DNA from: Rheinheimera sp.
GTDB lineage: Bacteria > Pseudomonadota > Gammaproteobacteria > Enterobacterales > Alteromonadaceae
DNA: 11,253 bases
Assembly (NCBI RefSeq): GCF_020217005.1
Contig: NZ_JAIWOI010000248.1
Coordinates: 1 to 11,253, forward strand
Direction of reading: 5' to 3'
Of the stretch, positions 1 through 11,253 are shown piece after piece. Both the position numbers and the translations under genes were made by a program. The first letter of the stretch is position 1. Each line of letters starts with the position of its first letter. The notes below the pieces were generated by a model, which saw only the letters and a list, made by a program, of their open reading frames with translations, was not told the origin of the DNA and made no database searches.

Positions 1-385
1 AGGTTTTGTCCAGCCCCAACAACTCATTCACAAGCTGGGCCAATTCTGGTTCATGCCCGACCAGCAACACAGCTTCATCCTGCTGTAACTGGCTGAACAA
101 ATGAGCTTTAGCTTCAGCCACTGGTACATCGGGCAATAAGCATTGCCACTCTTCGACTTGTACTTTTAGCCCGGAATCTTTTCTCACTAATGCCGCAGTT
201 TGCACAGCTTTGGTTTGTGGACTACAAAAAATCCGATCGGGCAATAAGCCCTGTTTTTGCATAAAAGCGGCCACACGGCGCGCCTGTAATCTGCCCTTTT
301 CATTCAGACAACGGTCGGCTTCATCCACCAGCGAAGTTCGCACATCTGCCGTCGCGTGGCGCATCAGATAAAGTACAGCTTTCAT
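1..385 (-). CDS. sixA: SixA-type phosphohistidine phosphatase, 3' end cut by window edge
   Basis: Histidine phosphatase (phosphoglycerate mutase-like fold) of the SixA type, which in E. coli removes phosphate from phosphohistidine on HPt or PTS-Ntr proteins; cytoplasmic. The reading frame starts at an ATG at 385 and stays open to base 1, giving 128 residues of a family of about 160. Visible motifs are the N-terminal catalytic RHAT (Arg8, His9) in MKAVLYLMRHATAD, an SPQTKAVQTA segment matching the family's second conserved block, and VGHEPEL near residue 110 with the second catalytic His. A clear ribosome site, AAGGTGA, lies 6 bases before the ATG. The C-terminus is outside the window, so integrity cannot be judged. 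The next gene is divergent, so this gene is read away from the kinase operon. The family is secure; the exact target protein is inference. Confidence 0.88.
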   Translation of the reverse strand, partial: MKAVLYLMRHATADVRTSLVDEADRCLNEKGRLQARRVAAFMQKQGLLPDRIFCSPQTKAVQTAALVRKDSGLKVQVEEWQCLLPDVPVAEAKAHLFSQLQQDEAVLLVGHEPELAQLVNELLGLDKT

Positions 386-411
386 CAATTTCACCTTTAG
401 TGCAGAAAATG

Positions 412-424
412 CTGGCAGACTATA
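412..424 (-). promoter_or_regulatory. Possible -10 region of sixA
   Basis: Read on the minus strand, TATAGT (424 to 419) matches the sigma-70 -10 consensus at 5 of 6 positions and would start transcription near 412, about 26 bases before the sixA ATG. No good -35 hexamer is visible 16-18 bases upstream, so this is a weak prediction. Confidence 0.3.
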
Positions 425-490
425 GCGAATCTATTACAGATATATGACTTACCCCTTTGTCATTGACGTAGCTGTTTTTTTGACAGCGTC

Positions 491-595
491 GCGGGCGACC
501 CTAAAGGCCGCCCCCACAATAGGGGCTAACTATCTTCTGTCACCTCTACTGATATTTAGATAGAAAATTGTAGGGGCGGGGTTTATCCCCGCCCG
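491..595. repeat. Pair of REP-like palindromes, reverse orientation of the 4946-5320 unit
   Basis: Two GC-rich palindromes, 491-518 and 569-595, lie 50 bases apart. The first carries GGGCGACC..GGCCGCCC around CTAAA; the second carries GGGGCGGGG and CCCCGCCC around TTTAT. They are reverse-complement relatives of elements A and B of the tandem array at 4946-5320, and the first has decayed by a few substitutions. The 386-811 gap holds this pair, a possible sixA promoter and a kinase leader hairpin. I see no gene in it; translated frames across it are repeat shadows. Confidence 0.8.
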
Positions 596-729
596 TATCG
601 AGTGCCAATCAACCGGGTAATTGCCAACTAGGTTCTTGGCCAATTGAGCCGCCCAACATACCAACTGCGACACTTTGCCACATTGCGCAGTACAGACAAG
701 CAGCAGACAATGATCCCGACTTCCACCAG

Positions 730-756
730 ATGACAAGGTGTTCCCACTCCTATACT
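730..756 (+). promoter_or_regulatory. Candidate promoter of the RegB/RegA-like operon
   Basis: ATGACA (730-735) resembles the -35 box (5/6) and TATACT (751-756) the -10 box (5/6), but the spacer is only 15 bases, shorter than the usual 16-18. Transcription would start near 763, leaving a leader of about 49 bases that contains the hairpin at 779-803. Confidence 0.35.
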
Positions 757-778
757 CTGGGCTGTCAGTTTTTTGCAA

Positions 779-803
779 CGGCTGCTTTGCAGCCGCTTTT
801 TTT
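779..803 (+). terminator. Intrinsic-terminator-like hairpin just before the kinase start codon
   Basis: A perfect 7-bp stem, CGGCTGC with GCAGCCG (779-785 and 789-795), closes a TTT loop and is followed by C and seven T (797-803). This is the form of a rho-independent terminator, yet it ends only 8 bases before the kinase ATG at 812. It could end an upstream transcript, act as a leader attenuator, or influence ribosome access. Confidence 0.6.
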
Positions 804-811
804 GAGACGCT

Positions 812-2092
812 ATGAACAGCATATTTGCCCGCAAAGATACCAGCCCGGCTCAGCCCATTCAGCAACTGCAGCGTTTTCGCTGGGTCTTGATTGCCTTAGA
901 ACTTCTGGCCAGCCTGATAGGTTATCTGTTGGAGTACCCTATCCATAGCTGGAGCCTGCTGTGTTTTGTCATTGCCGTCCATTGCTTTACCAATATCAGC
1001 CTTAAACTCTGGCGTGGTCAGCAAGGCTCAGAGCAACGTTTTATTGCCATCAGCATTTTGATTGATCTCTTTATGATCACAGCGCTGCTAGCGATGACAG
1101 GAGGCGCCAGTAATGGTTTTGTCGCCATATTACTGCTGCCTGTGGCTGTTACTGCGGTACTGTTTTCTGCAATTCCGAGCTACCTGATGGCGATACTGGC
1201 TATTGGCTGTTACAGCCTGCTACTGCAAGTGCCACTCACCACAGATGTGCATGCCATGCACCAGCATCATAGTGCTGAACCAGCGGGCACAGAACCTTTT
1301 AGCCAACATATCAGCCAAATGTGGTGGGCTTTTAGCTTTAGCGCTTTTATCGTCAGCTGGTTTATCAGCGCCCAAACCCAGCGTATTCGCAGCACTTCAG
1401 CGCAGTTAAACAAGCTGCAACAAAAACAGCTGCAGCATGAGCAAATACTGGCTGTGGCCACCTACGCCGCTAACGCAGCTCATGACTTAGCCACGCCGCT
1501 ACAAAACCTGGTGTTGCTGACCGATGAGCTGACAGAGCAACAGCAGGACGCCGCTTTAGCTACCGATCTGCGTCAGCAATTACAGTTGTGCCAGCAAATA
1601 GTGCAAAAACTTCGCAGCAATGCCCAGCAACTGCGTAAAGGTGACGTACAATCCCAGCCTTTGTATAACGCTATTGAGCACAGCATTCAGCTGTGGCTGG
1701 TGAGCCGGCCTGAAATCAGCATGGAACAACACTTCGCAAGCGACCAATCACCTTTAAAAGTGACGGACAGCATCAGTCTGGCGGCCGCTTTGTTTAATAT
1801 TCTGGATAATGCAGCTGACGCCAGCTTAGCCAATAAAGAGCCGAGATTAAGCCTGACGATGCAACAGAAGCAGGGCCAGCTGGAGTTACAAATTCGCGAT
1901 TATGGCCCTGGTTTATCAGAAAAAGAGCTGGCACAACTGGGCAAAAAGCCACAACCAAGTGAACAGGGTTTAGGTTTAGGCCAGTTCCTCGCTAATGTGT
2001 CCATCGACAGTCTGGGTGGTACAGTCGAGCGCAGCAACTGCACCGATGGCGGCGTGTTAACCCGTATTTATTTTGGTAATAAAGCACAATGA
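812..2092 (+). CDS. RegB/PrrB-type redox sensor histidine kinase
   Basis: Inner-membrane histidine kinase of the RegB/PrrB/ActS/RoxS family, which senses the redox state of the quinone pool and phosphorylates a RegA-type partner. Of 426 residues, about 24-187 contain six hydrophobic segments. A GGASNGF motif at 97-103 corresponds to the family's quinone-linked GGxxNPF, with Pro changed to Gly. The H-box is AAHDLATPL with His224. Cys260 in LQLCQQIVQKL lies 36 residues after it, where RegB has its redox-active cysteine. The ATPase domain shows the N-box NILDNAADAS (329-338), DYGPGLS (363-369) and GLGLG (386-390). The start is ATG 812; only a weak GAGA precedes it. The gene overlaps the next by ATGA, so the two are translationally coupled. 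No senC/prrC neighbour is present. Family assignment is firm; the controlled genes are unknown. Confidence 0.9.
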   Translation: MNSIFARKDTSPAQPIQQLQRFRWVLIALELLASLIGYLLEYPIHSWSLLCFVIAVHCFTNISLKLWRGQQGSEQRFIAISILIDLFMITALLAMTGGASNGFVAILLLPVAVTAVLFSAIPSYLMAILAIGCYSLLLQVPLTTDVHAMHQHHSAEPAGTEPFSQHISQMWWAFSFSAFIVSWFISAQTQRIRSTSAQLNKLQQKQLQHEQILAVATYAANAAHDLATPLQNLVLLTDELTEQQQDAALATDLRQQLQLCQQIVQKLRSNAQQLRKGDVQSQPLYNAIEHSIQLWLVSRPEISMEQHFASDQSPLKVTDSISLAAALFNILDNAADASLANKEPRLSLTMQQKQGQLELQIRDYGPGLSEKELAQLGKKPQPSEQGLGLGQFLANVSIDSLGGTVERSNCTDGGVLTRIYFGNKAQ

Positions 2093-2601
2093 AACTGGTG
2101 CTACTGGACGATGATGTCACTTTAACCCGCACCTTATGCCGTCGGCTGGAAGGCCTGGGACATCAGGTGAAAAGCTATAACGATGTGATAAGCCCCGAGC
2201 TATTAATCGCAGAGCAAGCCGACTGTTACCTGCTGGATTTACGTTTTGGTGTGGCCTCAGGCCTGGATTATGTGCAGCCACTACGCCAGCAGCTGCCGAA
2301 ATGCCGCATTGTGTTATTAACAGGCTACGCCAGCATAGCCACAGCAGTGCAAGCGGTAAAAGCAGGAGCAGACGACTACCTGACCAAGCCAGTCGATTTT
2401 GCGACTTTAACTCAGGCCTTAAGCGGTCAAGCGAGCGCAACAGCTGTCAATGAAGCCGAGGTTTTATCAACCGATCAGCTGGAATGGGAGCATATTCAAC
2501 GGGTTCTGGAACAGCACCAGGGCAATATCTCCCAAACCGCCAAAGCACTGGCCATGCACAGACGCACCTTGCAGCGCAAACTACAAAAACACAGGCCCTG
2601 A
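2089..2601 (+). CDS. RegA/PrrA-type response regulator with Fis-type HTH
   Basis: Cytoplasmic DNA-binding response regulator, partner of the kinase just upstream. It has 170 residues, close to the usual length of about 180. The receiver domain (1-112) shows the acidic pocket DDD (7-9), phospho-acceptor Asp50 in LLDLRFG, Thr78 in LLTGYASIATAVQAVKAGA and Lys100 in TKP. The C-terminal part (about 130-168) has LEWEHIQRVL followed by a Fis-like helix-turn-helix ending in MHRRTLQRKL, which is the signature of RegA/PrrA/ActR/RoxR. Start ATG 2089 overlaps the kinase stop by 4 bases. In other proteobacteria these regulators control respiration, carbon or nitrogen fixation and terminal oxidases; targets in this organism are inferred only by analogy. 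No intrinsic terminator is seen after it, and the suhB promoter follows at once. Confidence 0.93.
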   Translation: MKLVLLDDDVTLTRTLCRRLEGLGHQVKSYNDVISPELLIAEQADCYLLDLRFGVASGLDYVQPLRQQLPKCRIVLLTGYASIATAVQAVKAGADDYLTKPVDFATLTQALSGQASATAVNEAEVLSTDQLEWEHIQRVLEQHQGNISQTAKALAMHRRTLQRKLQKHRP

Positions 2602-2607
2602 ATTCGC

Positions 2608-2635
2608 TTTACTTTTTCTTCTCAGCGGCTACAAT
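2608..2635 (+). promoter_or_regulatory. Candidate suhB promoter
   Basis: TTTACT (2608-2613, 4/6 to the -35 consensus) and TACAAT (2630-2635, 5/6 to the -10) are separated by 16 bases, placing a transcription start near 2642 and a leader of about 39 bases before the suhB ATG. A second TACAAT lies at 2663-2668 without a matching -35. Confidence 0.5.
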
Positions 2636-2680
2636 ACGCGCCGCTCTTTTGACTGTTCTTTATACAATAAGGTAATCGCT

Positions 2681-3484
2681 ATGCATCCGATGTTAAACAT
2701 CGCAATTCGTGCTGCCCGCAGCGCAGGTAATGTCATCGCTAAAGCTTGTGGTCAGATGGACTTAGTTCAGACGACTCAGAAAGGCACCAATGACTTTGTG
2801 ACCAACATCGATAAAGAAGCAGAACAGGCCATAGTGCATGTTTTACGTAAGTCATTCCCGGATCACGACATTATCGGTGAAGAGAACGGCGAATATGGCA
2901 ACAATAATAGCGATTACCAGTGGATCATCGACCCGCTTGATGGTACCACCAACTTTATCAAAGGCATTCCTCACTTTGCGGTATCCATAGCTTTGCGTCA
3001 TCAGGGCAAACTGGATCAGGCCGTAGTTTTTGACCCCTTACGTGGCGAAGTATTCACTGCATCCCGTGGTGCAGGCGCTCAGCTCAATGGTCGTCGTATC
3101 CGTACTACCAATTTACCTGATTTAGGCGGCGCTATTCTGGCGACAGGTTTCCCGTTTAAACACAAACATCATTTAGATGCTTACACCGAAACTTTTAAAA
3201 CTCTGATGATTCAGGCTGCAGACGTACGTCGCACTGGTTCAGCAGCGCTGGATTTATGTTATGTCGCTGCAGGCCGTTTTGATGGTTTCTGGGAAATTGG
3301 TTTAAAGCCGTGGGATTTTGCCGCAGGCGAGCTGATTTTACGTGAAGCCGGTGGCTTAATCAGCGACTTCGCTGGTGGTAACAACTACCTGCGCAGCGGC
3401 AACATTGTTGCAGCCAGTCCAAAAGTATTAGGTGCCATGTTAAAAGGCATGCGCCCACATTTGACTGAATCTCTACTGAAATAA
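2681..3484 (+). CDS. suhB: SuhB, inositol-1-monophosphatase family
   Basis: Mg-dependent inositol monophosphatase that, in E. coli, also joins the Nus-factor complex for rRNA transcription antitermination and folding; cytoplasmic. The 267 residues equal the E. coli length and the opening MHPMLNIAIRAARSAGN is nearly identical. Metal and catalytic motifs are complete: Glu67 in GEENG, DPLDGTTNF at 84-92 (Asp84, Asp87) and WDFAAGELILREAGG at 211-225 (Asp212). The frame is open from 2450, but that stretch is the shadow of the response regulator gene. ATG 2681 is preferred because it matches SuhB's N-terminus and AAGG stands 8 bases before it. The gene has its own promoter and is followed by an inverted repeat that may end the transcript. 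Confidence 0.97.
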   Translation: MHPMLNIAIRAARSAGNVIAKACGQMDLVQTTQKGTNDFVTNIDKEAEQAIVHVLRKSFPDHDIIGEENGEYGNNNSDYQWIIDPLDGTTNFIKGIPHFAVSIALRHQGKLDQAVVFDPLRGEVFTASRGAGAQLNGRRIRTTNLPDLGGAILATGFPFKHKHHLDAYTETFKTLMIQAADVRRTGSAALDLCYVAAGRFDGFWEIGLKPWDFAAGELILREAGGLISDFAGGNNYLRSGNIVAASPKVLGAMLKGMRPHLTESLLK

Positions 3485-3492
3485 ATCGCTTG

Positions 3493-3531
3493 GGGTCAGA
3501 TCACATTTGCGCAGCAAAAGTGCTCTGACCC
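3493..3531. repeat. Long imperfect inverted repeat with GGGTCAGA ends, possible suhB terminator
   Basis: GGGTCAGA (3493-3500) and TCTGACCC (3524-3531) form perfect outer arms. Inside, TCACATTTGC (3501-3510) and GCAAAAGTGC (3514-3523) pair with two mismatches around a GCA loop. TTTATTTTC follows on the plus strand, so it could terminate suhB. The GGGGTCAGA/TCTGACCC end type is, from memory, common in dispersed gammaproteobacterial repeats. Confidence 0.7.
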
Positions 3532-3555
3532 TTTATTTTCGTCTCAATGTTCAAA

Positions 3556-3930
3556 TCAGACTTGCGGCTTAGTCAAAGGCAAACCTGCATTGACCCAGGC
3601 TGTATACCCACCCGCTAAACTCCAGACATCCTGATAGCCCATTTTCTGCAACATATCGGCCGCTAATGCCGAACGAAAACCACCACCACAATACAAAATC
3701 AGCGTTTGTTGTTTATCCTGCACTGCTTTTTCCACATCGCGCTCAATCACGCCTTTGCCCAAATGAATAGCAGCAGGCAAATGCCCTGCCAGCCACTCTA
3801 AATCCTCCCGCACATCCACCAACACATAAGGGGTTGGAAACTGCTGCAAATCAGCAATAGTCAGCTCTTTAACCCTGCTTTTGGCATCGTCGACTACAGC
3901 AAGAAAACCCGGGGAATGTTGTTTGGACAT
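3556..3930 (-). CDS. Single-domain rhodanese-like sulfurtransferase
   Basis: Single rhodanese domain that probably carries a persulfide sulfur on a cysteine; cytoplasmic, with no signal peptide. At 124 residues it is the normal size for single-domain members. Motifs in order are VLVDVREDLEW (37-46), GHLPAAIHLGKG (49-60), the active-site loop CGGGFRS (81-87, nucleophile Cys81), and AGGYTAWVNAGLPL near the C-terminus. The frame is open to 3960, but the ATG at 3930 has a clear AAGAAGG ribosome site, so the shorter form is preferred. The gene stands alone, convergent with suhB. A 7-bp inverted repeat lies in its leader. The natural sulfur donor and acceptor cannot be told from sequence. Confidence 0.9.
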   Translation of the reverse strand: MSKQHSPGFLAVVDDAKSRVKELTIADLQQFPTPYVLVDVREDLEWLAGHLPAAIHLGKGVIERDVEKAVQDKQQTLILYCGGGFRSALAADMLQKMGYQDVWSLAGGYTAWVNAGLPLTKPQV

Positions 3931-3955
3931 AAAAACCTTCTTGTAATTACATTTA

Positions 3956-3977
3956 GCCACTGTTTTTAATCAGTGGC
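3956..3977. promoter_or_regulatory. Inverted repeat upstream of the rhodanese gene
   Basis: GCCACTG (3956-3962) and CAGTGGC (3971-3977) are perfect arms around TTTTTAAT, about 26 bases before the rhodanese ATG. It may be an operator or a leader hairpin; no T-tract follows on the minus strand, so it is not a standard terminator. Confidence 0.4.
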
Positions 3978-4048
3978 AGCTTCAGTTACATCAATATAAA
4001 ACGAAGCTACCTCTTTTCCCCCTTAGCCGCAAGCCGTTCAAAAATGGG

Positions 4049-4190
4049 TGGCCAAGGTCGCCTTTTATGAATTACATCCATGTAATTCAACCTTTGGTCC
4101 AGCTTTCAGCTGTTGAAAAGTACTCCTGTACTTTTCTGCTTTGCGCCACTTTCTTTTGGCGACGCAAAAGAAAGTGGCTCGCCAACGGCG
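4049..4190. repeat. Cluster of consecutive small palindromes
   Basis: The 301-base gap between the rhodanese and HutD-like genes holds no gene but a dense row of hairpins. Arms TGAATTACAT/ATGTAATTCA (4068-4089, CC loop); CAGCT/AGCTG (4100-4112); GAAAAGTAC/GTACTTTTC (4115-4136, TCCT loop); GCCACTTTCTTTTG/CAAAAGAAAGTGGC (4145-4178, 6-base loop); and CGCC/GGCG (4180-4190). All arms are perfect. No T-tract follows, so these are not simple terminators. The look is of a dispersed intergenic element, and part of the motif set recurs at 10419-10694. Confidence 0.8.
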
Positions 4191-4231
4191 AAAGCGTTTT
4201 AAGTCAGTAGCAAACTGCCACCAAATCAGAA

Positions 4232-4801
4232 CTACAAAATTCTAATCCACACCAACCGACAGGGCTCCACACTAGCTTTCATCTGCAACGCCCCTACCTC
4301 ATCCGTGCATAACAAGCTTTGCCCAGCTTCCAGTTGATAGCTCTGCTCTTTGAAACTCAGCTGAAGCTGACCAGACGCCAGATATAACAAAGATTCATTC
4401 GCCAGAGTTAACGACAAAGGTTCAGTCACAGACAATACCTGCAAACTGGCTTTGACATCAGCACGCCTGGTCATCAGATTAAAATCCCGCACTGGCCCTG
4501 CTATTAAAGTGCAGTCAATGGCGGTTTCACCGGCAAAAGCGAAAGGCAGCAAAGCTTTATTCAACACTATGGGCTGCTCTTCAGCGCCATGCAAACAAAA
4601 GCCATTGCCTTGCAGCAGCATAATAATTCGGTCGGTTTGTTCAAAACGGGAAAAAGCACCGTCGCTGGCGACTTCGGCGATAGAAACACGCCAGCGCATG
4701 CCGCTTTGGTCGTCAGAACGGGCGATCTGATGCGTAATGCCACCGCCATTTTTCCAGGCCTGAGTTTGCCATTGCTTGGGGGAGATAAGTTGGAGCGCCA
4801 T
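4232..4801 (-). CDS. HutD/Ves family cupin-like protein
   Basis: Member of the HutD/Ves family, small double-stranded beta-helix (cupin-like) proteins. HutD is found in histidine-use operons and Ves in a cold-linked setting in E. coli; the biochemical role is not established. The 189 residues match the family's usual length. Diagnostic segments are WKNGGGITHQIA (16-27) and RWRVSIAEVASDGAFSRFEQTDRII (about 36-60), followed by LLQGNGF and a later GQLQLSF repeat of the fold. ATG 4801 is the only sensible start although the ribosome site before it is poor. No hut genes are nearby, so a histidine-degradation role is not supported by context. It is likely cytoplasmic, with no signal or membrane segment. 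Confidence 0.85.
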   Translation of the reverse strand: MALQLISPKQWQTQAWKNGGGITHQIARSDDQSGMRWRVSIAEVASDGAFSRFEQTDRIIMLLQGNGFCLHGAEEQPIVLNKALLPFAFAGETAIDCTLIAGPVRDFNLMTRRADVKASLQVLSVTEPLSLTLANESLLYLASGQLQLSFKEQSYQLEAGQSLLCTDEVGALQMKASVEPCRLVWIRIL

Positions 4802-4830
4802 AGGAAGAACTTAAAAGCTATGTAAAGTGG

Positions 4831-4860
4831 CTTATCTTAGGTGCTCTGCTGCGATGACAA
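4831..4860 (-). promoter_or_regulatory. Possible promoter of the HutD-like gene
   Basis: On the minus strand TTGTCA (4860-4855, 5/6 to -35) and GATAAG (4836-4831, 4/6 to -10) are 18 bases apart, giving a start near 4824 and a short leader. The -10 match is modest. Confidence 0.35.
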
Positions 4861-4873
4861 AAGAGCAACACAA

Positions 4874-4902
4874 ATAAAAAACGCCCCTTTGCAGCGAGGC
4901 GT
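4874..4902 (-). terminator. Minus-strand intrinsic terminator
   Basis: Read on the minus strand, ACGCCTC (4902-4896) pairs with GGGGCGT (4887-4881), allowing one G-T pair, around an 8-base loop, and is followed by TTTTTATT. It would stop transcripts of the diguanylate cyclase gene after they pass the repeat array. Confidence 0.6.
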
Positions 4903-4945
4903 AAAACGAACAGCTGGCTTTGTTGCAGCAAAACCAACTGTTTTT

Positions 4946-5320
4946 GTAGGGGCGACCTTTAGGGTCGCCCGCAAAGCAGTAACATAAACTCCAGACACCA
5001 GCGCCTGTAATACCCATCTAACGGGCGGAGATAAACCCCGCCCCTACAATGACCCATCTAAAATAATGACCAACCCAAATCACTGTAGGGGCGACCTTTA
5101 GGGTCGCCCGCAAAGCAACAGCAATTCCAGACACCAACGCCTGTTATGCCCATCTAACGGGCGGGGGTAAACCCCGCCCCTACAATGACCCATCCAAAAT
5201 AATGACCGCCCCAAATCACTGTAGGGGCGACCTTTAGGGTCGCCAGCAAAGCAACAGCAATTCCAGACACCAACGCCTGTTATACCCATCTAACGGGCGG
5301 GGATAAACCCCGCCCCTACA
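4946..5320. repeat. Tandem array of paired REP-like palindromes, 2.7 units of 136-139 bp
   Basis: Three units start at 4946, 5085 and 5221. Each has palindrome A (27 bases, GGCGACC/GGGTCGCC around TTTA), a 46-49-base linker, and palindrome B (27 bases, GGGCGGGG/CCCCGCCC around ATAAA or GTAAA). Units one and two add a 36-base linker, which the third lacks. A opens with GTAGGGGCG and B closes with CGCCCCTACA, so each A-B block has inverted ends. Units two and three are almost identical; unit one differs by a 3-base length change and several substitutions. The array ends 11 bases after the cyclase stop codon. The 4802-5331 gap holds this array, a terminator and a promoter, and no gene. Confidence 0.9.
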
Positions 5321-5331
5321 ACGCAGGGCAA

Positions 5332-6366
5332 TCAGCAACTACTGCTAATGCAATTCCTGCCTTCTGATTTCGCGCGATACAAAGCCGTATCGGCCGCACA
5401 TAACATGGCAAATGGGGTGCGGAACTGGCCGTTTATTTCACTGGCAATGCCCTGGCTGACAGTTACAGAGGTATCATCTGACAAACCTTGTTCTGAGAAC
5501 TTCAACTGACTGACATAATGCTGCACTTTAACCGCCACGGCTTTGGCCATAGCTTCGTCGTGGTAAGGCAGAATCAGTGCAAACTCTTCGCCGCCATAAC
5601 GGGCCGCTAAACCCTGACCACGAGGTACAGCCAACGAAATAGCAGCGGCAATACGGCGTAAACATTCGTCACCCTGCAGATGACCGTATTGATCGTTAAA
5701 CTGTTTAAAGTAATCAACATCTATGATCAGCACACTGACAGAGCTTTGATTTCTATTGCACTCTTCCCAATAGTGCTGCAGTCGTTCATCAAAGTGACGT
5801 CTGTTGGCTAAAGCCGTCAGTGGATCTGTGCTGGCAAGCATATGCAATTTGTAAAATTCAGCTTTGTAACTGGATAAATCGCGTATTACTACCACCAACA
5901 GCGGGTCGTCTGAAGGTAAATAAGATAAGGACAGTTCAATATCTTTGACATTACCATTGGCACAAATAATGGCCATTTCAGCCGGATTCTGCAACGATGA
6001 CAACACACCACGACGGCCCATATCGACCAGGTTATGGTAATGCGGCTGATAACGTTTGACTAAAAAGTCCGGCCAGCAATGCCCACGTAATGCGCCTTGG
6101 GTATGGCCCAAAAACTGTGCCGCTTTGCTGTTAATACACACAATACTGCCACTGACATTAACCACCAACACAGCTTCAGACAAATACTCAATCAAAGCAG
6201 GTAAAGATTCAAGATGAGGAACCGCATAACCACCAGCACCAGAAAAATCTACACGGGTAACATCGTTGTGGTTATAAAGCGAGGGGTTGAGCTCAGTTGG
6301 GCTGCCACTCGCTTCACTTACTGCAGAGGTTAAATATAATCTTTTAGATGGTGCTGAAGTTGTCAT
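5332..6366 (-). CDS. PAS-GGDEF diguanylate cyclase
   Basis: Soluble diguanylate cyclase making c-di-GMP from two GTP. Positions below count from the longer frame starting at 6420. An unstructured N-terminal part (1-65) is followed by a PAS domain (about 70-185, beginning ESLPALIEYLSEAVLVVN) and a GGDEF domain (198-362). The GGDEF domain shows DPLTALANRRHF, the metal and substrate segment DVDYFKQFNDQYGHLQGD, the intact catalytic signature RYGGEEF (GGEEF 276-280) and ADTALYRAKSEGRN. The allosteric I-site reads RGQG instead of RxxD, so product inhibition may be lost. There are no membrane segments. The start at 6366 is chosen because GGAG lies 9 bases before it; ATG 6420, giving 362 residues, has no good ribosome site. 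What the PAS domain senses is unknown. Confidence 0.9.
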   Translation of the reverse strand: MTTSAPSKRLYLTSAVSEASGSPTELNPSLYNHNDVTRVDFSGAGGYAVPHLESLPALIEYLSEAVLVVNVSGSIVCINSKAAQFLGHTQGALRGHCWPDFLVKRYQPHYHNLVDMGRRGVLSSLQNPAEMAIICANGNVKDIELSLSYLPSDDPLLVVVIRDLSSYKAEFYKLHMLASTDPLTALANRRHFDERLQHYWEECNRNQSSVSVLIIDVDYFKQFNDQYGHLQGDECLRRIAAAISLAVPRGQGLAARYGGEEFALILPYHDEAMAKAVAVKVQHYVSQLKFSEQGLSDDTSVTVSQGIASEINGQFRTPFAMLCAADTALYRAKSEGRNCISSSC

Positions 6367-6511
6367 AGGTCTGTGCTCCATAAGCCCTGGTACCGACGCA
6401 TTACTGCGTTTACTGAGCATGAATTTAGAACTTATGGAAAAAACAAACCTTCCGGCAACCTTCTGATTTAAATCATTGAATTTAAATTAAATTATTTATA
6501 TCTAAAAACTT

Positions 6512-6533
6512 AAAAAGCCCCGTATGGGGCTTT
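6512..6533 (-). terminator. Terminator of the regulator/DP-EP operon
   Basis: AAAGCCCC (6514-6521) and GGGGCTTT (6526-6533) form a perfect 8-bp stem around GTAT. Read on the minus strand it is followed by TTAAG and then TTTTT, about 90 bases after the stop codon of the DP-EP gene. The plus-strand side has only a short T run. Confidence 0.8.
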
Positions 6534-6624
6534 AAACACTAAGAGTAGCTGATTATTTCAGACGCTAAAGGAGCTTTATTTGACCAAATTTCAACCTTTA
6601 TGCCCCTGAATAAAAGTCTATGAA

Positions 6625-7011
6625 TTAATATTTAGGCGGTTTAATTTCTTTATTGATTACTTGCGGGTCAGGACTTAGTAACAGCAGGCTATTCGTAGTA
6701 TTCGTAAATATTAGTTGGAACTTAGTTGTACCCTGTACATTGTCTTCATCCATCAGCACCAGCTCCTGACCATCTGCAGATACCTGTACTGAGTCAATAA
6801 TATTGTCATAAGGGGTTAAAAAACCTGCGCCCATAAAAGCATAACCAGCGGAGTTGACCAGTCTGTAGGTAATATCTTCGCCACAAGTTACCACCACATT
6901 ACCAGTGCAAACTTCACCCTCCTGCAGATAAGTGACTTTAGGTTCCTGATTGGCATCTAATGTGATCGTGACTTCAATAACAGGGCCCTGAATTAAGTTT
7001 GTAGCGTTCAT
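6625..7011 (-). CDS. DP-EP (DUF1888) family self-cleaving protein
   Basis: Small protein of 128 residues that I place in the DP-EP/DUF1888 family. As I recall, its studied member SO1698 of Shewanella oneidensis is a beta-sandwich that cuts itself between Asp116 and Pro117, leaving Asp116 linked to Lys98. Here Asp115-Pro116 in LLSPDPQVIN and Lys97 in TTKFQLIF keep the same 18-residue spacing. Other notable segments are VIEVTITLD, YRLVNSAGYAFMGAGFLTPYDNIIDSV and LMDEDN. There is no signal peptide or membrane helix, so it is probably cytoplasmic. The frame is open to 7056, but ATG 7011 has AAGGA 6 bases before it and avoids overlap with the regulator gene. It lies 34 bases after that gene and shares its terminator, so the two are probably co-transcribed. 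The family call rests on memory of motifs, not on a search. Confidence 0.72.
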   Translation of the reverse strand: MNATNLIQGPVIEVTITLDANQEPKVTYLQEGEVCTGNVVVTCGEDITYRLVNSAGYAFMGAGFLTPYDNIIDSVQVSADGQELVLMDEDNVQGTTKFQLIFTNTTNSLLLLSPDPQVINKEIKPPKY

Positions 7012-7045
7012 AAGTTTTCCTTGGTTTGGGTGAAATAACAAAATT

Positions 7046-10000
7046 CTAAAAATCATTCAGCACAATTGCTGATTTCAGCAGCAGTTGCTGCACTTCAGGA
7101 TACTGCTCTAATTTATTCAGACAACTTAAAGCTCTGGCATAAGGCTGGATATAATAAGGTGTTTTATCTTTTTGCAGTAAAGGCTCCAGCAAAGTTTTTG
7201 CCATAGCGCAGGACTGTTGACTTTTATCATCCTGCAATTGGTTTTTATAATGCATTGCTTGCAGCAGTTCAGTTTCAGCCAAAGCAAGTGCTAAATTCGA
7301 ATTGCCAGCATCAGCTGAGTGAAACTCCCGGTACAAAGCTAAAGCTTGAGACGTAAAATCTGCGCTTTTCTTTGATTTTCCTATTGCCTGATAATAACGA
7401 GCAGACTCAAGTAACCAGTTAGCGTAGATCCTCTGGTATTGCTCTTCACCACCTAATACATTTTTCTTTTCATCAAGCTCTAGTTTTATAGATTCAGGAG
7501 TATAACTTATTCGTTGGTCATGTAACTTGGCATTGAGCCGCATTAACATGACCTTATGATGAAATAAACTGCCTTGCCATCCTTTGTTATCAGGATCTTG
7601 TAATACAGCTTGCTCCAACAATCCGCGAGCTTGATACACCTTAGCAAATGCCTGCTTGGTTAGTCCCTGATAATTATAGATACTAGCAAGTATGGAATAG
7701 CTGCTGAAAATTCTATCCAGTAAATAAGCATCGGCTTTAACTTCTTTATTCATCCTTTCAAACTCAGCCTGTATCTGTAAGTGCATTGCTATAACCTGAT
7801 TGGTATTCCCTTCAGCTGAAGCAGCCCGAGCTAACCAGGAGCGGGTATCAGCTATATCAGCAATCAAAGCGGTATTGCCTGGATCTTTAGCTTTTGCCAA
7901 TAATTTAAGATTTAACGATTCATCAAAAAAAGCCGTAGCTTGTTCAAACTCTTGTAAATTCATCGCTAAAGAACCTAAAGAATTAGTGGCGTAAGATAAT
8001 TCCATTAAGGCATCTACGCTGTCGGGCGCTATTTTGTACATAGCCTGGCTATAGCTGTAATACAGCTCAAATTCTGGTTTAACGGCCAACCAGTTATTGG
8101 CATCGTACTGAATTTGCCCCAGCCAAAAGGCATTGGCGCCTAAGGTTTTTAATAGTTCTAAATTATCCGGCTGCTCAGCTAGTACTGGCGCTAGTTTATC
8201 TCTTGCCGCTAACAAAGCCGTTTTGGCTTCATCAATTTTGTCACGTGAATAAGCCACTTCGCCCATAGCTTCCAGCGTTTGGCCATGTTGCAAACGGGCC
8301 TGGGTGCTTAGGTAGTGGTCTTTTTCCGCATCAGAAAAGTCGCTGAAATACTCCAGCGCTTTATTGCTGATACCGTCGAGTAAATCCATCCGACCTATGC
8401 TGCGCAATTTATCGGCAAAATCCCCCACCATAAAACCTAATAAACTTTCGGCGGCTAAACGTTTTTGCTGTGCTTGTTTTTCGGCTTCAAAACTTCGGAA
8501 GCTCATTAATACTGCAGTGAAAGTCAGCACACAGAGTAAAGCAAAAGTTAAACGCCTGCTGGTGCGTACTAGTTTGGATCTTTTGCCTGAGGCCAAAATA
8601 AAAGCTTGTTCGTTGGCATCCAGCGTAAAAAAGCCGTTTTGCGCCAGTTGCTGGGCTTCGGCCAAAGGTTTGCCGTCGGCCAATAAATAGGCGCTGTGTT
8701 TATCTTCGGCCAGCCAGCGTTTGGTTAAATGCTGCAAGCGGCTTTTTACACTTAAACTTTGATGATGTTCTGCTATCCAGTTGGTGGCGCGTGGCCAGCG
8801 CCTTAATAAAGCTTCGTGCGCAATACTGAAACAAGGCACAGCATTGTGCAGGTGGGAGACAAATAAACGATGTTCCACCATGGCTTGTACCAAAGTACGC
8901 TCAGCCTCATTATGTAGTTGTTGCCAGAGTGCTGTGCGGCTGGTGATGGACTGTTCGTCTTCGCGTAACGTCACCAGTAAAGAGAGCACCCTGGGTAAAC
9001 TGTCTTTTTCGGCTGTGCTTAACTGCGCTATGGCCTGCTCGGCATTTTTACCTATAGCGCCTTCAATACCGCCTAAGTTTTTATACACAGAAAACAGCAG
9101 CTGGTTGCTGTCGCTGCGCTGTAAATACAATTCCTGCAAAGTGTATTGCAGCATAGGTAAAGCGTCGGGGTTGCTGGCGGCTTCGCTGCATAACAGCTCA
9201 TCCAGCGGCACTGCGGTATTTGGGTCTAAGTCCCAACTTAAATTGGCGGCTATGGCAGGTAAGCGGATCATCTGCAATAAATCGGCTCGGCTTGGTGGTG
9301 CTAAGTCAAAATGCGCGCCACGGGCTTTGCCTGCCATTAAACTGGGGTAAGTAACTAATAAAGGATAAAACTCATTACGACAGGCACTTAATACCAGCAC
9401 TAAACCTGAAGTCGCCAGTTGTTCCATCCGGTCGATAAACAGCAGCCGTTCTTCTTCGCTAAACAGCGGCGACGATAACAGCACTTCAAGTCGGTCAATA
9501 AAAATGGCAAAACGGGATTTACTTTCGTTTTGGTGTTGCAGCGCCTTTTTGCAGCTTTGCAGCACCCAGTCCATCTGATGTTGTAATTTATCTGCCAGCT
9601 GTTCTGCACTACAGCCGTCAAATACGGGCTGGTCTGCTACTTCCCAGTCGAGCAAAGCACTGGACAGTTGCATTAATAATTGGCCTGGGGTTAGGTCAGC
9701 TAAATCCAGACTACTGTACGACTCTACCTTAACGCCGTTATAGCCGCTGTTTTGCATCAAATTTGGCATCACGCCCGCATTGATTAACGAGGATTTACCG
9801 CAGCCGCTTGGGCCTAAGACTAAACAAAAAGCTCTGCCGTATTGCACTTGCTGCGCAATACGTTCCAATAAGGTATCAATTTGGCTGCCACGGCCAAAAA
9901 ACACTTTGGCATAACGGGCGTCGTAAGCCTGTAAACCCGGAAAAGGCGAACCGCCCTGCCAGCTTTGTGGTGTCGCGCTTTCTTCCTGCCCCAGCGGAAA

Positions 10001-10309
10001 AGTCACCTGAGCCAGGGTGCGGTAACCACGTTTACGTATAGTTTCAATATAAGTAGAGGCGGTGGCGCTGTCGCCGAGGGCTTTGCGAATTTGGGTGATA
10101 ATTTTATGCAGTGGGTTATCGCCCACTTCGGTTTGAGGCCAGCAAATGCTTACAATCTCGTCGCTGCTTAGTACTTCTCCGGCCTTTTGGCACAGCAGCA
10201 CCAGCACATCCATAGCTTTAGGTTCAAGCTGGATCAGCTGTTTGCCAAGCCTGAGCGTATTGGCACTAGGGTCCACCTGCCACTCGCCAAAAAAGAAAGT
10301 ACCGTTCAT
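7046..10309 (-). CDS. Winged-helix / STAND NTPase / TM / TPR one-component regulator
   Basis: Large membrane-anchored regulator. Numbers count from GTG 10315; ATG 10309 (residue 3) is preferred as start, though neither has a strong ribosome site. Residues 5-105 are an OmpR/CadC-type winged helix ending IETIRKRGYRTL. Residues 124-600 resemble STAND (nSTAND1-like) NTPases: FPGLQAYDARYAKVFFGRG, Walker A GPSGCGKSS (168-176), Walker B-like IFIDRLEVLL (271-280), then an arm ending SIAHEALLRRWPRA. A single hydrophobic helix at about 588-605 follows a Lys/Arg-rich stretch, favouring cytoplasmic N-terminus and periplasmic C-terminus. A charged coiled segment and GFMVGDFADKLRSIGRMDLL come next, then a helical TPR-like region (about 670-1085). 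A plausible role is binding DNA, using ATP and reading a signal through the TPRs. The ligand and target genes are unknown; it may control itself and the DP-EP gene. Confidence 0.87.
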   Translation of the reverse strand: MNGTFFFGEWQVDPSANTLRLGKQLIQLEPKAMDVLVLLCQKAGEVLSSDEIVSICWPQTEVGDNPLHKIITQIRKALGDSATASTYIETIRKRGYRTLAQVTFPLGQEESATPQSWQGGSPFPGLQAYDARYAKVFFGRGSQIDTLLERIAQQVQYGRAFCLVLGPSGCGKSSLINAGVMPNLMQNSGYNGVKVESYSSLDLADLTPGQLLMQLSSALLDWEVADQPVFDGCSAEQLADKLQHQMDWVLQSCKKALQHQNESKSRFAIFIDRLEVLLSSPLFSEEERLLFIDRMEQLATSGLVLVLSACRNEFYPLLVTYPSLMAGKARGAHFDLAPPSRADLLQMIRLPAIAANLSWDLDPNTAVPLDELLCSEAASNPDALPMLQYTLQELYLQRSDSNQLLFSVYKNLGGIEGAIGKNAEQAIAQLSTAEKDSLPRVLSLLVTLREDEQSITSRTALWQQLHNEAERTLVQAMVEHRLFVSHLHNAVPCFSIAHEALLRRWPRATNWIAEHHQSLSVKSRLQHLTKRWLAEDKHSAYLLADGKPLAEAQQLAQNGFFTLDANEQAFILASGKRSKLVRTSRRLTFALLCVLTFTAVLMSFRSFEAEKQAQQKRLAAESLLGFMVGDFADKLRSIGRMDLLDGISNKALEYFSDFSDAEKDHYLSTQARLQHGQTLEAMGEVAYSRDKIDEAKTALLAARDKLAPVLAEQPDNLELLKTLGANAFWLGQIQYDANNWLAVKPEFELYYSYSQAMYKIAPDSVDALMELSYATNSLGSLAMNLQEFEQATAFFDESLNLKLLAKAKDPGNTALIADIADTRSWLARAASAEGNTNQVIAMHLQIQAEFERMNKEVKADAYLLDRIFSSYSILASIYNYQGLTKQAFAKVYQARGLLEQAVLQDPDNKGWQGSLFHHKVMLMRLNAKLHDQRISYTPESIKLELDEKKNVLGGEEQYQRIYANWLLESARYYQAIGKSKKSADFTSQALALYREFHSADAGNSNLALALAETELLQAMHYKNQLQDDKSQQSCAMAKTLLEPLLQKDKTPYYIQPYARALSCLNKLEQYPEVQQLLLKSAIVLNDF

Positions 10310-10326
10310 AACCACAACCGGAAGTT

Positions 10327-10349
10327 AACTATATGTTTAATATATAGTT
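10327..10349. promoter_or_regulatory. Perfect AT-rich inverted repeat, candidate operator of the regulator operon
   Basis: AACTATAT (10327-10334) and ATATAGTT (10342-10349) are perfect 8-base arms around a 7-base spacer, 18-40 bases upstream of the regulator start codon. Its position between the likely -10 and the gene fits an autoregulatory site, although OmpR-type winged helices usually bind direct repeats. Confidence 0.5.
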
Positions 10350-10351
10350 GT

Positions 10352-10364
10352 GAGCTTTATTATA
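10352..10364 (-). promoter_or_regulatory. Possible -10 box of the regulator/DP-EP operon
   Basis: TATAAT on the minus strand (10364 to 10359) is a full match to the sigma-70 -10 consensus and would start transcription near 10352, just upstream of the inverted repeat. No -35 match is seen at 16-18 bases, which would fit an activator-dependent promoter or a chance AT-rich match. Confidence 0.4.
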
Positions 10365-10379
10365 AAAGCACTGATTTGT

Positions 10380-10440
10380 TACCCGTCGTACTTGAAGCTG
10401 TAGCGGCGTTGGCTGATTCTAACATTCGAGTTAGGAGCAA
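10380..10440. repeat. Fragment resembling a dispersed gammaproteobacterial intergenic repeat
   Basis: The stretch opening TACCCGTCGTACTTGAAGC and continuing with GCGTTGGCTG resembles, from memory, a widely scattered intergenic sequence in gammaproteobacteria for which I know no agreed name. It ends in a small hairpin, CTAAC/GTTAG (10419-10434). No coding frame is supported. Confidence 0.4.
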
Positions 10441-10443
10441 TAA

Positions 10444-10667
10444 AAAAATCGTCAGGAACGATTTTTCACTCACATCGTCCATGATGTTCGCCTACGGCAG
10501 CTGAAGCTGTGAAAAACAGCTGTCCTGCTGTTTTTTAACATTGGAGCGGAGCGACGATGGCCCGGAGGGCGAAGCCGGTTTTAGTATTGCCAACAGTTTG
10601 GCAATACCCGGATGAGCGCCAGTGGCTCTGACCACTGGCCGGAACATTTTGCAGGACAGCAAAATGT
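10444..10667. repeat. Second cluster of small hairpins
   Basis: Six perfect hairpins in about 220 bases. Arms are AAAAATCGT/ACGATTTTT (10444-10466, CAGGA loop), CAGCT/AGCTG (10498-10509), AAAAACAGC/GCTGTTTTT (10512-10535, TGTCCT loop), GTATTGCCAA/TTGGCAATAC (10584-10607), GCCAGTGG/CCACTGGC (10618-10639) and ACATTTTGC/GCAAAATGT (10644-10667, AGGACA loop). The 400-base gap between the regulator and rpmE holds this cluster, the regulator's promoter region and a terminator; no gene is supported. Confidence 0.8.
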
Positions 10668-10694
10668 AAAAAAGGCACCCTAGGTGCCTTTTTT
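10668..10694 (-). terminator. rpmE terminator
   Basis: AAAAAAGGCACC (10668-10679) and GGTGCCTTTTTT (10683-10694) form a perfect 12-bp stem around CTA, 15 bases after the rpmE stop codon. The A/T ends allow termination in both directions. Confidence 0.9.
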
Positions 10695-10709
10695 GACTGA
10701 TGCCTGAAA

Positions 10710-10922
10710 TTACTTGGCGCCCAGTACTGCGAAACGTTTTTTGAAGCGGTCAACACGGCCGCCTACGTCTAACACTTTCTGCTTACCAGTGTAGAATGGG
10801 TGGCAAGCTGAGCAAACGTCCAAGTGGATGTCTTTGCACAGTGTAGAGTGAGTTTTGAAAGAGTTACCGCAAGTACAAGTTGCAGTGATTTCTTTGTAAT
10901 CCGGGTGGATACTTGGTTTCAT
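10710..10922 (-). CDS. rpmE: 50S ribosomal protein bL31, zinc-binding type
   Basis: Large-subunit ribosomal protein bL31, which bridges the two subunits. The 70 residues are the standard length and the opening MKPSIHPDY is typical. Cys16, Cys18, Cys37 and Cys40 (CTC, CSAC) form the zinc site, so this is the C+ form, not the zinc-free YkgM type; zinc limitation often switches the two forms. GAGG precedes the ATG by 7 bases. It is a single-gene unit with a strong terminator after it. The leader holds a near-perfect palindrome (10951-10970). In E. coli, rpmE is reported to be autogenously controlled through its leader, and a similar control here is inference. Confidence 0.97.
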
Positions 10923-10950
10923 GGGTTTACCTCGTTAGGCCGTATCGCTA

Positions 10951-10970
10951 TCTGATCAACTGTTGTCAGA
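10951..10970. promoter_or_regulatory. Near-perfect palindrome in the rpmE upstream region
   Basis: TCTGATCAAC (10951-10960) and GTTGTCAGA (10962-10970) are inverted copies around a central T, with one extra T in the left arm, 29-48 bases before the rpmE ATG. It could be a protein-binding site or part of a leader RNA fold. Confidence 0.45.
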
Positions 10971-11080
10971 CACCATACGCAATTTCAGTTAAATTAGGGC
11001 GCGTAGTTTAATGGCTAAGGCTTAAAGTTTCAACAAATTGGCTGATTTATTTTTAATGGCTTTGCCGTGTGCGAATAATA

Positions 11081-11203
11081 TACCCAAGTGACCCCAAAAT
11101 GCAGAATTCAGCGGGAGATAAAAGCGCTTTAGGCGAGGCAGCTGTTGGAAGCTTTAGTGGGTCTAAAGCGACAACAGTTAACGCGGCATAAAGCGCTTTT
11201 AGC
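11081..11203. repeat. Nested inverted repeat element near the right edge
   Basis: TAAAAGCGCTTTA (11119-11131) and TAAAGCGCTTTTA (11189-11201) are perfect 13-base arms. Between them CTGTTG/CAACAG (11142-11147, 11172-11177) and GCTTTAG/CTAAAGC (11151-11157, 11163-11169) form an inner hairpin with a TGGGT loop. Upstream, TATACCCAAGTGACC (11081-11095) resembles, from memory, a dispersed gammaproteobacterial repeat end. The stretch 10923-11253 holds this element and the rpmE leader and no supported gene. Confidence 0.65.
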
Positions 11204-11253
11204 CCCGCCCGAAGGGAGTCGCTGGGCGATTGCACTGCGGTGTTAGCCTGTCT

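Follow-up and report, generated by a model that had tools for sequence, protein, structure and literature searches.

Pairing of a winged-helix/nSTAND1/TPR regulator gene with a DP-EP protein gene in Rheinheimera and other bacteria

Contig NZ_JAIWOI010000248.1 of Rheinheimera sp. (assembly GCF_020217005.1), analyzed over positions 1 to 11,253 and called the window below, carries two adjoining minus-strand genes that constitute a real two-gene module, obligate among the loci examined. The upstream gene codes for a large protein in which a winged helix, an nSTAND1 ATPase, a predicted membrane helix and a TPR region follow one another, and the downstream gene codes for a small protein of the DP-EP family (Table 1). 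In all 46 loci with this type of large protein the adjoining small gene bears a characteristic Asp-Pro tail, which is found in none of 12 evaluable loci of other nSTAND1 proteins and in none of 651 background open reading frames (ORFs); the pairing of the two genes is far beyond chance. The domain types are known ones in a new combination and partnership, and the module is undescribed within the literature searched. The reading that we favor, with a probability of roughly 45%, is that the pair acts as an autoregulated membrane one-component switch with the DP-EP protein as its dedicated output and possibly as a feedback partner.

Table 1. Features of the two-gene module (window coordinates unless a locus is named)
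Feature	Position	Strand	Remarks
Operator-like palindrome, 23 bp	10327..10349	minus	AACTATAT-N7-ATATAGTT; conserved in Rheinheimera, single copy in genome
Large gene	7046..10309	minus	Winged-helix/nSTAND1/TM (membrane helix)/TPR regulator, 1,087 aa
Winged-helix DNA-binding domain	9995..10309	minus	Residues 1-105; Trans_reg_C at 25-97 (Pfam)
nSTAND1 NTPase domain	8696..9946	minus	Residues 122-538 (Pfam)
Walker A GPSGCGKSS	9788-9814	minus	Residues 166-174
Single membrane helix (predicted)	8495..8551	minus	About residues 587-605, strongly hydrophobic
TPR solenoid	7049..8332	minus	About residues 660-1087; predicted periplasmic
Small gene	6625..7011	minus	ATG 7011, stop 6625; DP-EP protein, 128 aa
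Conserved tail S-P-D-P-Q-V-I-N	6652..6675	minus	Residues 113-120 of the small protein
Terminator-like hairpin	6514..6533	minus	3′ of the small gene
Second DP-EP genes with signal peptide (other loci)	L006:3418-4176, L009:7615-8373, L010:7610-8368, L044:7547-8317, L056:3989-4753, L059:7359-7865		Signal peptide by eye

Conserved pairing of the two genes

The arrangement of the two minus-strand genes, the 34 bp gap between them (7012-7045) and the domain make-up of their products were recorded in an initial annotation of the window, and ORF and Pfam checks confirm all of these. The large ORF starts at ATG 10309, with the listed GTG 10315 two codons upstream. The same annotation proposed one promoter and one terminator. 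A terminator-like hairpin lies 3′ of the small gene, such hairpins numbering 12 in the region where 5.3 would be expected, and the proposed promoter is one of nine weak matches where 7.4 are expected by chance, the conserved element at that place being a palindrome (discussed below).

The tail pattern was written after the tails had been inspected, such that the count of 46 of 46 checks a reading and the two controls are the informative comparisons. Other types of nSTAND1 protein were found at 19 places, of which 15 were retrieved (G446, G552, G422 and G457 were left out), and three of these (L083, L084 and L096) have almost no sequence after the gene, giving the 12 evaluable loci. Long or antisense ORFs obscure some of the genes: in 2 of 42 loci (L046 and L055) a longer ORF overlaps the DP-EP gene and masked it from automatic gene calling, both loci being counted after reading, and antisense ORFs hide the small genes of L092 and L093 together with the large gene of L093, which were read separately.

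The pair is patchily distributed. Seven relatives are present among named genome contigs, six from Rheinheimera and one from a gammaproteobacterial metagenome-assembled genome (MAG). In a sample of the order, 35 of 394 genomes contain a DP-EP gene, each preceded on the same strand by a large gene of this type, and the reverse search, using an alignment of 17 large proteins, recovers the same 35 genomes plus a two-piece match in G184, where the gene downstream is a divergent DP-EP (Pfam 15 bits, below the cut-off of 25). A sample of 398 genomes from the phylum contributes two further long matches, within the class and outside the order, in G657 (model positions 5-1076) and G537 (5-928), and a plasmid collection contributes one, in the alphaproteobacterium Niveispirillum cyanobacteriorum. 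In all three a small gene adjoins the large one (the two genes overlap by 4 bp in Niveispirillum), with a tail reading SSDPEVVN, LSDPQIIN or VCDPQVVC. Neither G657 nor G537 was reported in a DP-EP family search of an equal-sized phylum sample, and Pfam gives no match in the Niveispirillum small protein; the Asp-Pro tail is a means to find partners missed by Pfam. A search of the plasmid collection for DP-EP gave no match, and viral contigs gave 21 matches to the DP-EP pattern with none confirmed (the phage collection was not searched).

The sizes and orientations of the ORFs around the pair vary between genera, and the rpmE locus of two same-genus genomes (G052 and G330) lacks the pair. Comparison of large proteins with and without an adjoining DP-EP gene bears out the initial suggestion that the two genes are one unit, and they are plainly not neighbors in just one or a few genomes. 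Literature searches on DP-EP, SO1698 and nSTAND1 themes returned no paper on this gene pairing, and the accessible part of PMC7159879 contains nothing on it.

Domains and predicted topology of the large protein

The N-terminal Trans_reg_C match (E 7.6e-17) is above the curated Pfam cut-off, and nSTAND1 (PF20703) follows it with 285 bits against a cut-off of 27.1 (E 1.5e-84). The winged helix is of the OmpR type, with CadC (5ju7) as its closest solved relative, and the ATPase has a Walker B motif, FIDR, around D272 in addition to Walker A; G166, K172 and D272 are invariant in an alignment of 17 sequences. In the C-terminal part, AlphaFold (with an alignment from seven close relatives) confidently models helical repeats at about residues 670-1020, and Foldseek with this alpha-solenoid gives TPR proteins such as O-GlcNAc transferase and LGN as its top rows. 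No Pfam TPR model is above cut-off on the window protein, the best being TPR_CcmH_CycH (E 0.0022); in relatives TPR_2 and TPR_8 (L042) and TPR_12, TPR_2, TPR_1 and TPR_8 (L060) are. Pfam, hydrophobicity, AlphaFold and the TPR matches of relatives together support the domain order first read from the window, namely a winged helix, a STAND-like NTPase, a membrane helix and a TPR-like C-terminus. Two PHROGs families of unknown function match the large protein, over its ATPase and winged-helix parts, and the PHROGs search gave no family match for the small protein.

From hydrophobicity and flanking charge we infer one membrane helix with the N-terminus inside, the 15 flanking residues having a net charge of +6 on the N-side and +1 on the C-side. 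In 3 of 42 large proteins (L059, L070 and L073) another hydrophobic stretch near residue 292 outscores the segment near 590, and the latter was taken as the helix. Toward the C-terminus there is a pair of cysteines, C1034 (7208-7210) and C1063 (7121-7123) in the window protein, which is present in 42 of 42 large proteins at a spacing of 29 in 37, 28 in three, 26 in one and 14 in one. Beyond the membrane helix, 39 of the 42 have no further cysteines (L063, L072 and L073 are the exceptions). The pair is also found in L091 (the Niveispirillum locus) and L092, again with a spacing of 29, and in L076 with a spacing of 14, and is missing from L093. Because of the cysteine pair and the flanking charge, the sequence suggests that the TPR part is a periplasmic, disulfide-bearing C-terminal domain, in agreement with the membrane topology initially put forward.

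The large protein shares an OmpR-type winged helix and one predicted membrane helix with CadC and with ToxR, TcpP and PsaE, the regulators of the pairs ToxR/ToxS, TcpP/TcpH and PsaE/PsaF (available part of PMC8407435). The same excerpt assigns two periplasmic cysteines to ToxR, TcpP and PsaE, and the large protein resembles regulators of this type in having two cysteines in what would be the corresponding C-terminal domain, with a partner gene alongside. Unlike them, it has an nSTAND1 ATPase and, in addition, a TPR solenoid some 430 residues long. STAND ATPases are usually met in immunity and in cytoplasmic regulators, and one built into a membrane-anchored DNA-binding protein would make transmembrane STAND signaling testable.

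The DP-EP protein and its Asp-Pro tail

The small protein belongs to PF08985 (DP-EP; E 2.9e-24, 86.2 bits against a cut-off of 25), and its model conforms to the fold of its closest solved structure, SO1698 of Shewanella oneidensis (PDB 3n55 and 3njf-3njn). To our knowledge the SO1698 crystal structures are so far without a biological role, and the obligate partner gives the DP-EP family a functional context. The model of the small protein also resembles the PixA/MakC/MakD fold (PF12306). This likeness is in fold only, in that sequence identity is 7-10% and PF12306 is absent among the Pfam matches (E up to 0.001; DP-EP alone is reported); another PixA, 4pib, scores only 6.6. PixA was rejected as a general neighbor of the pair, a search of 17 genomes having found PF12306 in that of the window alone, and there on a different contig. 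The Niveispirillum plasmid (NZ_CP025613.1) has a PixA-family gene divergently upstream of the large gene (L091:3178-3564), whose product ends WDPFITINP, with D-P near the C-terminus here too.

The body of the DP-EP protein is fast-evolving, with a mean pairwise difference of 65% versus 41% for the ATPase. In 51 aligned DP-EP sequences D116 and P117 (SO1698 numbering) are invariant, and S114 and N121 are conserved in all but one sequence each. In a set of 27 divergent sequences, including three from outside the order, the same Asp and Pro (D115 and P116 of the window protein) are the only invariant residues.

The initial annotation described the small protein as self-cleaving, a description that the residues involved do not support. 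Wild-type SO1698 and its variants Y26F, K98A, P115A and Q118A are deposited as 119-residue chains ending after D116, and D37A, S114A, D116A and P117A as 128-residue chains; the cut therefore seems to depend on D37, S114, D116 and P117. Of these, the last three are retained in the window protein (as S113, D115 and P116), but, unlike SO1698, it has asparagine (N38; 6898-6900) in place of D37, and the SO1698-type set of cleavage residues is thus incomplete. The position of D37, around which the alignment is clear for Rheinheimera and less so for distant relatives, is Asp in only 8 of 42 first-position genes, and that of K98 is Lys in 16 of 42. Presumably, then, either the cut is not the conserved function of DP-EP or it proceeds without D37, and the conserved tail would therefore need another reason, such as recognition or closure of the sandwich.

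A second DP-EP gene is located further downstream in eight loci, four of them Rheinheimera contigs (L006, L007, L009 and L010) and four from the order sample (L044, L056, L057 and L059; 4 of 36 genomes). By eye, seven of these genes, all except the L057 ORF, encode a signal peptide, which in L007 lies on the first of two pieces. The D37 position is Asp in 2 of these 8 genes and K98 is Lys in all 8. About 110 extra residues precede the DP-EP domain in L006, L009, L010, L044 and L056 and are absent in L059, and Pfam gives no match outside the DP-EP domain in the five second genes scanned. The second gene of L007 (7568-8326) is split into two ORFs, perhaps by a frameshift or a sequencing error. 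The window has no second DP-EP gene. In first-position DP-EP proteins inspection by eye, with no predictor run, reveals neither a signal peptide nor a membrane helix; signal peptides were judged by eye throughout, and alternative upstream starts may exist (e.g. in L054).

The upstream palindrome, competing readings and neighboring genes

The sequence AACTATATATTAAACATATAGTT sits 18 to 40 bp upstream of the start codon of the large gene, and a 24-base block (all of AACTATATATTAAACATATAGTT but its first A) is shared without change by all 7 loci compared, the flanks varying (the window, five Rheinheimera loci and one MAG; L006 was omitted as its large gene is cut by the contig end). With up to three mismatches allowed, the palindrome has no other match in the 3.92-Mb genome, and it is not repeated between the two genes of the operon. 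Such a conserved, single-copy element suggests a dedicated operator, and hence that the regulator controls its own operon.

In the autoregulated switch that we favor, the large protein would be a one-component regulator in the style of ToxR and CadC, a STAND ATPase lying between its DNA-binding domain and the membrane. The TPR solenoid would sense something in the periplasm, the ATPase would be a nucleotide-gated switch, probably oligomerizing, and the winged helix would act on the palindrome before the operon. As no second copy of the palindrome was found in the genome, the regulated product would be the operon itself, and the DP-EP protein, a predicted beta-sandwich resembling PixA/MakD with an invariant Asp-Pro tail, would be the dedicated output. 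The earlier idea of the small protein as the output thereby gains some support from the restriction of the palindrome to this operon in the 3.9-Mb genome, the output role itself being presumptive. The wider idea of a membrane signaling module holds with regard to domains, predicted topology and pairing and fails with regard to self-cleavage; its signal, its contacts and its function are at present conjectural. More speculatively, and with distinctly less assurance, the pair may represent a class of transmembrane signaling in which a STAND ATPase in a ToxR-like regulator with a periplasmic TPR antenna controls only its own operon and is obligately coupled to a DP-tailed, fast-evolving beta-sandwich whose sole invariant feature, the tail, is recognized or processed in one or both compartments.

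The distances among DP-EP proteins correlate with those of the parts of the large protein to different degrees (Spearman 0.74 for TPR residues 660-830, 0.66 for 831-1087, 0.61 for the ATPase and 0.54 for the winged helix; L006 was left out, its large gene being cut by the contig end). Removal of six Rheinheimera-type loci and L074 (34 taxa left) gives 0.62 and 0.59 for the TPR stretches versus 0.48 for the ATPase and 0.42 for the winged helix. Compared with the 120 fastest ATPase columns, the TPR halves come out ahead in 99% and 97.8% of bootstraps, but the fastest 120 columns of residues 831-1087 give 0.33, below the 0.58 of the fastest 120 ATPase columns. The signal is modest and may reflect rate effects, and the predicted compartments disagree, so that contact between the two proteins is no more than possible. 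The initial annotation noted that, were the TPR region periplasmic, a cytoplasmic DP-EP protein would meet only the N-terminal half of the regulator, and the difficulty is a real one. The first-position proteins, lacking a signal peptide by eye, agree with this, whereas the DP-EP protein co-diverges best with the TPR part and some loci add a copy with a signal peptide.

These same observations bear on a rather unlikely though serious alternative, that the DP-EP protein is a ToxS-like partner, its conserved tail engaging the TPR or ATPase part so as to bind the regulator and stabilize or gate it, with the target genes elsewhere. One-to-one pairing, co-divergence with the TPR part and the additional signal-peptide copies would all fit such a partner, for which ToxR/ToxS, TcpP/TcpH and PsaE/PsaF are precedents (available part of PMC8407435). 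However, only one copy of the palindrome was found in the genome, the co-divergence may be an effect of rate, and the first-position DP-EP proteins have no signal peptide or membrane helix by eye, unlike ToxS, TcpH and PsaF, which have a membrane helix and are mostly periplasmic according to the same excerpt.

It is improbable that the pair is an anti-phage or conflict system with the STAND protein sensing an invader and DP-EP as effector. The accessible parts of two papers name nSTAND1 in predicted counter-invader systems (PMC8195603) and describe it in putative antigen sensors diversified by diversity-generating retroelements (PMC10907252), and the large protein is like the former in joining an nSTAND1 NTPase to a C-terminal repeat superstructure; the patchy distribution, including the two same-genus genomes without the pair, is also in keeping with such a role. 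Unlike those conflict proteins, it has a DNA-binding domain rather than a known effector at its N-terminus, a membrane helix between ATPase and repeats, behind which the presumed sensor would sit, and a fixed DP-EP partner. Moreover, PADLOC 2023 matched no system (the best match, 1.9e-4, is over about 27 residues at the P-loop, and the small protein has none), and neither plasmids nor viral contigs yielded a confirmed DP-EP relative.

Still less probable is a peptide-signaling loop, in which self-cleavage of DP-EP at Asp-Pro would free a C-terminal peptide that serves as the TPR ligand. TPR domains often bind peptides, and the invariant D-P, the conserved stretch after it and the shortened wild-type SO1698 chain are as this would predict. 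Against it stand the replacement of the needed D37 in the window protein and most first-position relatives, the lack (by eye) of a signal peptide to reach the periplasm, and the behavior of the cut SO1698 peptide, which reportedly remains bound in the sandwich (Osipiuk et al. 2012, J Biol Chem). That the two genes are chance neighbors with no functional link is already refuted by their pairing in all 46 loci, which span two bacterial classes and varied surroundings.

Several points weigh against the autoregulated switch. First, four order-sample loci have gaps of 131-259 bp between the genes, room enough for a promoter of the small gene's own. Second, G072, G172, G321 and G147 (loci L077-L080) encode proteins that lack an adjoining DP-EP gene yet match the winged helix and the ATPase and carry a similar membrane segment; L077, the one scanned by Pfam, has a winged helix, nSTAND1 and TPR_12-type repeats. 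The pairing therefore marks a subgroup and not every protein of this domain order, and since the unpaired proteins group with a support of only 0.64 in the ATPase-domain tree, with L093 beside them, the subgroup is not sharply delimited. The large-protein searches scored up to two candidates per genome and may have missed further paralogues. Third, one of five DP-EP models scored well (73) and the others 37-50, and the N-terminal half of the AlphaFold model of the large protein is unreliable (confidence score pLDDT mostly <50); with the model reliable in the TPR region only, we therefore claim no ATPase fold from it. Fourth, the palindrome is supported in Rheinheimera only, most other genera having no inverted repeat beyond shuffles before the large gene; it is AT-rich and overlaps a promoter-like match, a factor other than the winged helix could bind it, and one unique strong site is compatible with weaker or unlike sites elsewhere. 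Finally, co-divergence of DP-EP with the TPR part would fit contact better than a pure output, and the two are predicted to lie on opposite sides of the membrane.

Downstream of the pair the window encodes a PAS-GGDEF diguanylate cyclase (5332-6420; Pfam). In the Rheinheimera loci the ORF after the pair is of similar length (350-363 aa), a putative counterpart by size. Two short ORFs with near-identical starts (MGITG.GVW...FAGDPKGRPY) lie between the HutD and GGDEF genes (4832-5289), which points to an intergenic repeat. At 812-2601 there is a histidine kinase and Fis-type response regulator pair, which by eye we take to be RegB/RegA-like.

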